From positions 124,001 to 188,000 of the forward strand of contig JALWGC010000014.1 of assembly GCA_027038835.1 (NCBI GenBank): a stretch of DNA of 64,000 nt, in the 5' to 3' direction. This document shows, one piece after another, positions 8,922-10,978 of this stretch. This DNA comes from Helicobacteraceae bacterium. GTDB taxonomy: Bacteria > Campylobacterota > Campylobacteria > Campylobacterales > Sulfurimonadaceae. Made by a program: the position numbers and the translations under genes. The notes under the pieces are model-generated. The model was given only the letters and a program-made list of their open reading frames with translations. It was not told the origin of the DNA and searched no databases. The stretch's first letter is position 1. Every line of letters begins with the position of its first letter.

Positions 8922-9206
8922 TTAGATGTCGTCTCTGTAAACGTCGGTTATGTCGAAATCGTAATCGGGCTTGATATCGGGAACACTCTCTATGGTCTTT
9001 TCATCCACTTCGTTCGATTTGAGATCGTACTCTTTCCCCTTATAGAACTTTTGTTCTTTTGCGAATTTTTTCTCTTGTTCTATCGCTTTTTCGATGTTTT
9101 TTTGCGTAACATCTTTCTTTTTGGCTTTATAGTGCGCATCACTCGCACTCAAACTGGAAATGAACAAAACGTTCATAAGGAGTAAAATTGTAAAAAATCG
9201 GCGCAT
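8922..9206 (-). CDS. Small secreted hypothetical protein
   Basis: 94 residues: a signal peptide (MRRFFTILLLMNVLFIS followed by SLSASDA) and a short, highly charged mature part rich in Lys, Glu and Asp with no cysteines. The start at 9206 is chosen because AAGGGAA precedes it and a signal peptide begins there; the open frame upstream runs through the repeat element and is not genuine. A MITE-like element ends about 13 bp upstream of the start codon, so expression of this gene may depend on it. Family not recognised. Confidence 0.6.
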   Translation of the reverse strand: MRRFFTILLLMNVLFISSLSASDAHYKAKKKDVTQKNIEKAIEQEKKFAKEQKFYKGKEYDLKSNEVDEKTIESVPDIKPDYDFDITDVYRDDI

Positions 9207-9218
9207 AAGTTCCCTTTT

Positions 9219-9432
9219 TAAGTAATGAGGCATAAATAGTTTCATAATCCAACAAAACAAGCGAAGCGCTCCCGAAGGGATGTTTCTTGTTGCCCTTTGG
9301 GTGAGATGATTTTCACTCATCTTTGCACGAAAATCACCTTGAAGTAGAATAACTACTACTGCGGTGATTTTCCTACAAATCTGAACGAAACTCATCTCAT
9401 TGGATAGGAAATTATTTATGCCTCATTACTTA
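9219..9432. mobile_element. MITE-like element, 25-bp terminal inverted repeats flanked by TA
   Basis: The ends 9219-9243 and 9408-9432 are inverted copies of each other with one mismatch in 25 bp, bounded on both sides by TA, as expected for an IS630/Tc1-type target duplication. The interior, about 164 bp, has further self-complementarity, including GAAAATCACC (9329-9338) with GGTGATTTTC (9363-9372), and encodes no transposase. A full-length transposase source is not in the window. It lies between a small secreted-protein gene and the HD-GYP gene. Confidence 0.7.
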
Positions 9433-9490
9433 TAAGCATTTTATATAAAATTGATAATACCATTTTATATATAAAACGATAAAGAAGAAC

Positions 9491-10978
9491 TTAAAACTTT
9501 CCGCTTCTTGCTTCGATGGACCTTTTGGACTGTAAGAACGTTTCAAGATGTTTTAAAAATATATCCATCAAATACGGGTCGAACTGCTTCCCTTTCTCTT
9601 CTTCGAAAAGTTTGAGTATCTTTTCCAGCGGCCACGCTTTTTTGTAAACCCTGTCACTCCCAAGAGCGTCGAAAACGTCCGCTATGGCGACGATTCTGCC
9701 GTAGATGTGGATATCTTCCCCTTTGAGTCCTCTTGGATACCCTTGACCGTCCCATCGCTCATGGTGTTCGTACGCAACGATCGCCGCGGCTTTGAGCAAT
9801 TTTCTGTCGGAATGTTTGAGCATGTTGTACCCGATGGTCGTGTGCTCTTTCATCTTTTCGTACTCTTCTTGGGTAAATCTGCCCGGTTTTGCAAGGATAG
9901 AGTCTGGAATCCCAAGTTTACCGATATCATGCATCGGAGAAACATCTCGAAGCAATATCGCCTCCTCAATCGGCAAGCCGGCGAGTTTCGCCAACAAGAA
10001 AGAATAACTCGCCACCCGCTCGATATGCTCGCCCGTTTCCTTGGAATGCTCCTCGGCTATCGAACCCATAGTATGGATAATCTCTTTTTGGGTAATATGA
10101 AGCTCACGGTTGAGCGCTTTTATCTCCTGTGTCGCTTTTTTAACTTCGGTTTTGATTTTCTGCGCTTGGGTTCGTTCATTTTGAATGAGGTCTTCAACTA
10201 CATGAATATTCGCTTTGAGCGCAACGGCAATCTCGGTAATCTCGTTTTTCCCTTCAAACTGAATATCTTCCACTTTTGTACGTTTTCTCTGCAATACATC
10301 AAGAAAAATCGTGAACTGTTTACTGAGTTTTTCGATATCGAGCAGCACCTCTTTGATGGTCTGCTCGAATAAAAAGAGTATAAAGAAAAAGATTATGACA
10401 GAAACACCGATTGTCAATGCTATTTTGTCATGTATCTCTTTTTGTATCTGCTTGATTTGTTCGCTACCATGTTTTTGAATCTCTTGAAATATCTCGTTGA
10501 GTTCGTTTAGGATTTTTCCGTTTGTTTGTACAAGCGCCAGCACGGAGTAGATGCCGTCTTCGTAATCCTCTTCCATGTCCTCTCTAAGGTTGTCGGCTAT
10601 CACTTTCAAACCCTTGATACGGGTTTGGATATTGGTCAGCTTCGAAGCGATTAGCAAGTCGTTGTAGTTAAGAACCGTTTGTTTCAAATTTTCGATATCT
10701 TCTTGGAGTTCGTTGTAAGTTTTCTCCCTAAGAGCGTCGATATTTTTTTTCTGTATCGCCGAAGTGATGCTAAGACCGTTAAAACGCTTTAATTCCGCAT
10801 CTATCGTATATATTTGATACTGCAGTTTACTAAAACTGCTCAGCTCTTTTTGGTATGCGTCGTTGGTTCGCTCGACCGCTACGAAAGGAGCGAAAATGAT
10901 GATACCTATCATTACTACCGCGATAACGTAGTTGATAAAAATCTTTTTACGAATTGTGTAGTTTTTTAAAATCGACAT
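9491..10978 (-). CDS. Membrane-anchored HD-GYP cyclic-di-GMP phosphodiesterase
   Basis: 495 residues: a membrane segment at about 13-30, a periplasmic four-helix-type sensor region, a second membrane segment at about 186-204, a coiled linker of about 80 residues, then an HD-GYP domain. The catalytic motifs HDIGKLGIPDSIL and HERWDGQGYPRG are complete, so hydrolysis of c-di-GMP is expected. The domain layout suggests that periplasmic signals control activity. It starts three bases after the DUF3373 porin stop and ends a three-gene operon; the porin and the small periplasmic protein may feed the signal, which is inference. Confidence 0.92.
   Translation of the reverse strand: MSILKNYTIRKKIFINYVIAVVMIGIIIFAPFVAVERTNDAYQKELSSFSKLQYQIYTIDAELKRFNGLSITSAIQKKNIDALREKTYNELQEDIENLKQTVLNYNDLLIASKLTNIQTRIKGLKVIADNLREDMEEDYEDGIYSVLALVQTNGKILNELNEIFQEIQKHGSEQIKQIQKEIHDKIALTIGVSVIIFFFILFLFEQTIKEVLLDIEKLSKQFTIFLDVLQRKRTKVEDIQFEGKNEITEIAVALKANIHVVEDLIQNERTQAQKIKTEVKKATQEIKALNRELHITQKEIIHTMGSIAEEHSKETGEHIERVASYSFLLAKLAGLPIEEAILLRDVSPMHDIGKLGIPDSILAKPGRFTQEEYEKMKEHTTIGYNMLKHSDRKLLKAAAIVAYEHHERWDGQGYPRGLKGEDIHIYGRIVAIADVFDALGSDRVYKKAWPLEKILKLFEEEKGKQFDPYLMDIFLKHLETFLQSKRSIEARSGKF

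Follow-up and report, generated by a model that had tools for sequence, protein, structure and literature searches.

The window, a 64,000-nucleotide stretch of DNA from a Helicobacteraceae bacterium, contains a 214-bp segment (9219..9432, hereafter referred to as E1) that ends in inverted repeats and lies in front of a small gene. The locus raises the question of what kind of element this is, how it came to lie there, and whether its folded interior or its proximity affects the gene. A preliminary description of the segment had noted 25-bp inverted ends with one mismatch, TA at both edges, the absence of an internal transposase and a foldable interior, and all of these features were confirmed. 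The left terminal inverted repeat (TIR; 9219..9243, plus strand), TAAGTAATGAGGCATAAATAGTTTC, in which TA is the target dinucleotide, and the right TIR (9408..9432, minus strand), which reads inward as TAAGTAATGAGGCATAAATAATTTC, match at 24 of 25 positions, with TA at each edge, and neither a transposase nor any other gene was found within E1. The single-strand fold of E1 has an energy of -96.6 kcal/mol (z -12.9), and none of 200 shuffled sequences was equally stable. A scan for inverted pairs of this quality, 110-400 bp apart, identified 17 places in 1.96 Mb of the same genome, one of which (C13:87915) is unrelated, versus none in 9.8 Mb of first-order shuffled sequence at the same score.

Copies, target site and rearrangement

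Many other copies, for which the preliminary description had proposed a search, were found both in the same genome and in relatives, and its reservation that there might be none can be set aside. E1 and its family (F1) are short and non-coding, have TIRs, occur at multiple unrelated loci and display a TA target-site duplication: E1 is a real miniature inverted-repeat element (MITE), that is, a non-autonomous DNA transposon. Its own genome contains two further TIR-bounded copies, E2 (C2:153309-153581, 273 bp) and E3 (C14:293791-293999, 209 bp), together with one half of an element at C12:59220-59318, a piece of the interior at C3:72859-72946 and about nine single ends, each 18-29 bp long. A metagenome-assembled genome of the same genus (G003, JALUFE records) carries about 13 full copies of 273-275 bp, and G266 has a sister family with the ends TAAGTAATAGGGCATAAATA, represented by about 14 full copies of ~268 bp and many partial copies and solo ends. 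In G116, which belongs to another family of the same order, an EamA gene is split by a 275-bp copy, and removal of the element plus one TA restores a continuous frame of 304 amino acids; the target duplication is therefore TA, the direct proof consisting of this one disrupted gene together with the edge sequences of the F1 copies, which carry TA on both sides.

Comparison of the three TIR-bounded copies indicates how E1 was formed. E2 is intact and consists of the TIR stem, arm B, the CCCTTTGGG hairpin, arm C and the second TIR. In E3, arm C has been lost and a palindrome of 36-38 bp (module A) adjoins arm B. E1, a rearranged derivative of the 273-275 bp element, contains module A (9254..9288, minus strand; a mobile palindrome of 35-38 bp) in the place of the lost arm B, followed by the GC mini-hairpin CCCTTTGGG (9293..9301), which sits between the two arms and is conserved across the superfamily described below, and by arm C (9302..9399), an imperfect hairpin of ~98 nt that is divergent and lacks the CAAGGC/AACG core. 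The CAAGGC...AACGMAG core is absent from E1, having been lost with its arm, but is present in E2 and E3. E1 is thus an arm replacement caught inside one genome, in which the motif-bearing arm would have given way to another small mobile palindrome. Module A also occurs on C8, as a tandem array of four copies of a ~37-bp unit (C8:106266-106412, L034), on C11 and C13, and inside elements of another family, F3, on C4 and C5; it is missing from the same position of a further F3 element (C2:70598) and is therefore independently mobile. Single copies of module A were also observed in several other Campylobacterota genomes.

Several smaller derivatives were encountered. Mini-elements of 33-59 bp, with little beyond two facing F1 ends, are present in the same genome (C10:34393-34425) and in G003 on C46 (L112:993-1046) and C95 (L120:1048-1106). 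At four loci (C2:36154-36173, C12:56510-56529, C6:120410-120429 and C19:36352-36371), a solitary F1 end overlaps the stop codon with which the gene reading into it terminates. As the TA target and the first A of the element regenerate TAA, stop codons may be safe landing sites at which the end is kept as a stop. Several solo ends closely face a start codon, suggestive of a promoter motif, but no common promoter role is claimed for them, because these four overlap an upstream stop codon. Two inward-facing F1 ends lie 2.8 kb apart at C12:56509-59319 (L030), an interval enclosing ppk and a hexapeptide-repeat (gamma-carbonic-anhydrase-like) gene; a composite transposon was considered here but is judged less likely, the two ends being probably chance neighbors. 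In G266, at L142 and other loci, the F1-like family is also represented by many copies that are one-sided or partial, one of them lying close to an unrelated palindrome of ~70 bp, TAACTACTAAGCCCCTTTTTTAAG.

Cloverleaf fold and the shared arm core

Full-length relatives of about 265-285 bp fold as a cloverleaf, with a TIR stem of ~33 bp and two opposed imperfect hairpins (arms) of ~95-100 nt that flank a tiny GC hairpin. Eleven full F1 copies share a structure of 103 pairs, in which 98.2% of cells pair, and the end-to-end TIR stem is found in all F1 copies. Two-sided changes affect 13 of the 103 pairs, a number reached by none of 500 shuffles, with 0-2 in slid controls. A similar fold in the set from G266, G034 and AUK240 displays two-sided changes in 20 of 108 pairs, counted on the consensus fold of that set itself, without slid controls. 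DNA-level palindrome repair may yield much of this covariation in the absence of selection.

The geometric scan of the genome revealed, besides F1, five families with unrelated TIRs: F2 (ends TAACTGACCTTACGCACC), F3 (ATCCCGGATTTTGCATTAGA; mostly a single hairpin), F4 (TAGACTTCTTGCAAAACTCC), F5 (TACCAAACCCAACTAAA) and F6 (TACCATCGGTAACTAATTCC). F2, F4, F5 and F6 follow the plan of F1: their arms, of 94-102 nt, are oppositely oriented, and most copies have a GC hairpin of 7-9 nt between the two. A core is common to the arms of these four families and of F1; its 5' side carries CAAGGC and its 3' side AACGMAG. Two-sided changes were found in 21 of the 27 core pairs over 21 arms, and 26 of the 27 pairs covary in a 71-arm alignment that was fitted to the structure (score 0.77, versus 0.24 for shuffled and 0.11-0.18 for slid controls). 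Among 41 arms less than 80% identical (mean 51%), hardly any variation is seen at the loop and lone-pair residues, A-G-G-C and A-A-C-G, whereas most stem columns are low in information; this near-invariance is partly ascertained, because the covariance model favors arms that keep the core. The right TIR of the AUK240 element is identical to that of F1 over 27 of 27 bases, whereas its arm 1 has a core with 88% identity to an arm of F5 (whose TIR matches at 10/27) and only 54-60% identity to F1 arms. Identical ends are therefore found with different arms, and different ends with similar arms. Judging from these sequences, the arm core has been recombined among families and behaves as a portable module, and the retention of shared folded arms despite different ends suggests that the arms do something.

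The covariance model of the arm (R1) gave 20 matches in the genome of E1, nearly always within TIR elements. Across the phylum, it matched 57 of 397 Campylobacterota genomes, belonging to 22 of 68 genera, with many opposed pairs ~105 bp apart. Of 30 R1 loci fetched, 24 proved to be complete TIR elements, 264-289 bp in length, among which more than 10 different ends occur; this is an independent check, because the ends are not part of the model; both arms match R1 in about 15 of these 24. Two phage contigs of unknown host contain single-arm, near-perfect palindromes of ~162 bp with the core (L355:884-1046, 42.8 bits; L393:1502-1663, 30.8 bits), which suggests that the core may reach beyond Campylobacterota. 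These are the two real matches to a loose core pattern in viral contigs, the others being mostly due to chance; no exact F1 end was found in viral contigs, and no similar DNA was found in the plasmids and phages searched. Rfam 15 gave no structured-RNA match above the gathering score. The open-licence PMC literature yielded no description of this repeat class in Campylobacterota and no MITE papers for Sulfurimonas, Arcobacter or Epsilonproteobacteria. The group is large and appears to be undescribed.

Probable placement of E1 in the leader of the small gene

The gene behind E1, described beforehand as encoding a small secreted protein, is real and conserved: it encodes 94 amino acids (8922..9206, minus strand; ATG at 9206-9204), has no Pfam match and is conserved in the family, with homologs of 46-49% identity in several genera. 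The early suggestion of a MITE-like element close to its start codon stands, except that the gap to the ATG is 12 bp rather than 13. The upstream neighbor, an HD-domain (HD_5) protein gene (9491..10978, minus strand), is read in the same direction. In several relatives, a TATAAT-like box precedes the ATG by ~30-40 bp. Just beyond E1 stands GGTATTAT, which without E1 would be ~43 bp from the start codon, a spacing like that in the relatives, and comparison with these relatives points to (GG)TATTAT at 9454..9459 (minus strand), upstream of E1, as the probable native -10 box of the gene. Given this position, E1 most likely inserted into the transcribed leader, with the promoter left in place; as it lies between the probable -10 box and the ribosome-binding site, it would be part of the mRNA leader. 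The insertion would have occurred at a TA between these two signals, and the expected empty site is AAAATGCTTATAAAAAGGGAACTTATG, with one TA. In the mRNA, E1 would fold into a hairpin of its own immediately ahead of the ribosome-binding site; translation could then still initiate largely unhindered, and the hairpin might provide a site for RNase III. The proposal that E1 supplies or silences expression was not borne out: the probable native -10 box is on its far side, and the predicted accessibility of the ribosome-binding site hardly differs with and without E1, for a folded leader whose 5' end lay a few bases before the expected start of transcription. The 17 element positions examined are all intergenic; where both neighbors were callable by crude ORF calling, seven were divergent, eight tandem and one convergent.

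The strong fold and the placement in the leader of a conserved gene might also be taken to indicate a fixed regulatory element, such as an attenuator or a structured 5' UTR, that is not mobile. We give this reading practically no credence, as E1 is missing from those upstream regions that were read in relatives of the gene, and its sequence recurs at many unrelated loci; these copies already refute it.

Mobilization, possible arm function and relation to known repeats

As a whole, the data are best explained by a cloverleaf MITE that is moved in trans and has a portable arm core, E1 being an arm-swapped derivative of it located in a leader; we consider this very probable. A transposase recognizing TAAGTAATGAGGCATAAATAATTTC ends would have moved E1 in trans. 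An autonomous partner with the same ends is usual for a MITE but not required, and is often absent for real MITEs. The IS630/Tc1-type transposase with matching ends anticipated in the preliminary description did not materialize. No partner with matching ends was found in the same genome or identified in the relatives, which were searched in part, and the genome contains no intact element of 0.6-3.5 kb with F1 ends (TAAGTAATGAGG...). Its only DDE_3 match is a truncated 3' remnant of an IS630, with ends unlike those of F1; this remnant sits between other genes (C11:104004-104306, L129). Intact IS630s in G001 and G038 were rejected as partners, their TIRs being different, and weak DDE_3 matches in G109 correspond to IS3-type rve proteins.

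MITEs derived from IS630/Tc1-mariner elements have a TA target duplication, TIRs and no coding capacity, as in the elements described here, and the TIRs of the G038 IS630, TATTACTCCACTAAC, resemble those of a G181 MITE, TATTACTCCCCCATT. The TA duplication is thus consistent with a classical family of this type with an IS630/Tc1-mariner transposase as partner, but 22 of the 26 arm-rich genomes have no DDE_3 match, no transposase with matching TIRs was found, and the present elements differ in sharing an internal arm module across different ends; we regard such a partner as rather unlikely. Movement through the arms by an HUH enzyme of the Y1/RAYT type, as for REPs and REPINs, with the TIRs serving only as the base of the fold, would accord with the recognition by such enzymes of imperfect hairpins with conserved mismatches in opposed pairs, and with the better conservation, across the phylum, of arms than of TIR sequence. 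The precise TA duplication and the strong conservation of the outermost TIR bases point instead to a double-strand DDE mechanism, making an HUH enzyme very unlikely.

The role of the arms is the more delicate issue. The core may have been kept by common descent, recombination and palindrome repair, without function, in what would be an ordinary MITE with palindromic filling: arms recombine among families, DNA palindromes can correct themselves and thereby generate paired changes, and elements with lost or degenerate arms persist (E1, F3 and arm C). The internal-loop residues are, however, nearly invariant although the surrounding stems have diverged fully, and palindrome repair cannot preserve such residues; moreover, the core is found again and again, across 22 genera, in elements whose TIRs are unrelated; this account is conceivable but falls short of an even chance. 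Alternatively, and as tentatively, the core may be a portable structure with a function, either single-stranded DNA or RNA in folded form, that has a conserved purine-rich internal loop and is recognized by a factor common to many bacteria. MITEs whose ends are unrelated, possibly served by different transposases, would then acquire the core because it raises transposition or persistence.

Among known repeats and recombination sites, integron attC sites have an R-box/L-box pattern, which does not appear to fit here. The Correia elements (NEMIS) of Neisseria are also small and non-coding, with TIRs of ~24 bp and TA at both ends, often adjoin genes and form a long stem in the transcript for which RNase III processing has been proposed; they differ in their length (~107 or 155 bp) and in the IHF site of one form, and neither a two-arm cloverleaf nor a cross-family arm module is described for them (PMC2229807). 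The CIR repeats of Caulobacter and Brucella resemble the present elements in having two long inverted-repeat arms joined by a linker, but their ends do not pair (PMC2229807), and TIRs and a TA duplication are absent or unknown in them. Assignment of F1 to the CIR repeats was rejected, as all F1 copies are closed end to end by the ~33 bp TIR stem. According to the same review (PMC2229807), CIR repeats are the only bacterial repeats with arms, and they have no end pairing; the cloverleaf architecture is thereby distinct from the repeats reviewed there. REPs and REPINs are likewise mobile imperfect hairpins, often in inverted pairs (PMC3116915). The long TIRs, the TA duplication and arms of ~95-100 nt set the present elements apart from them.

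MITEs are usually defined by their ends, the inside being treated as filler. Here, the ends change freely, whereas an exact hairpin with invariant loop bases is kept inside across 22 genera. The arm core thus makes it possible to test whether bacterial MITEs can contain an internal module with a function, and R1 is a model with which a repeat class missing from Rfam can be searched for. The superfamily also explains the repeated hairpins in gene leaders with which annotators of Campylobacterota genomes are confronted.
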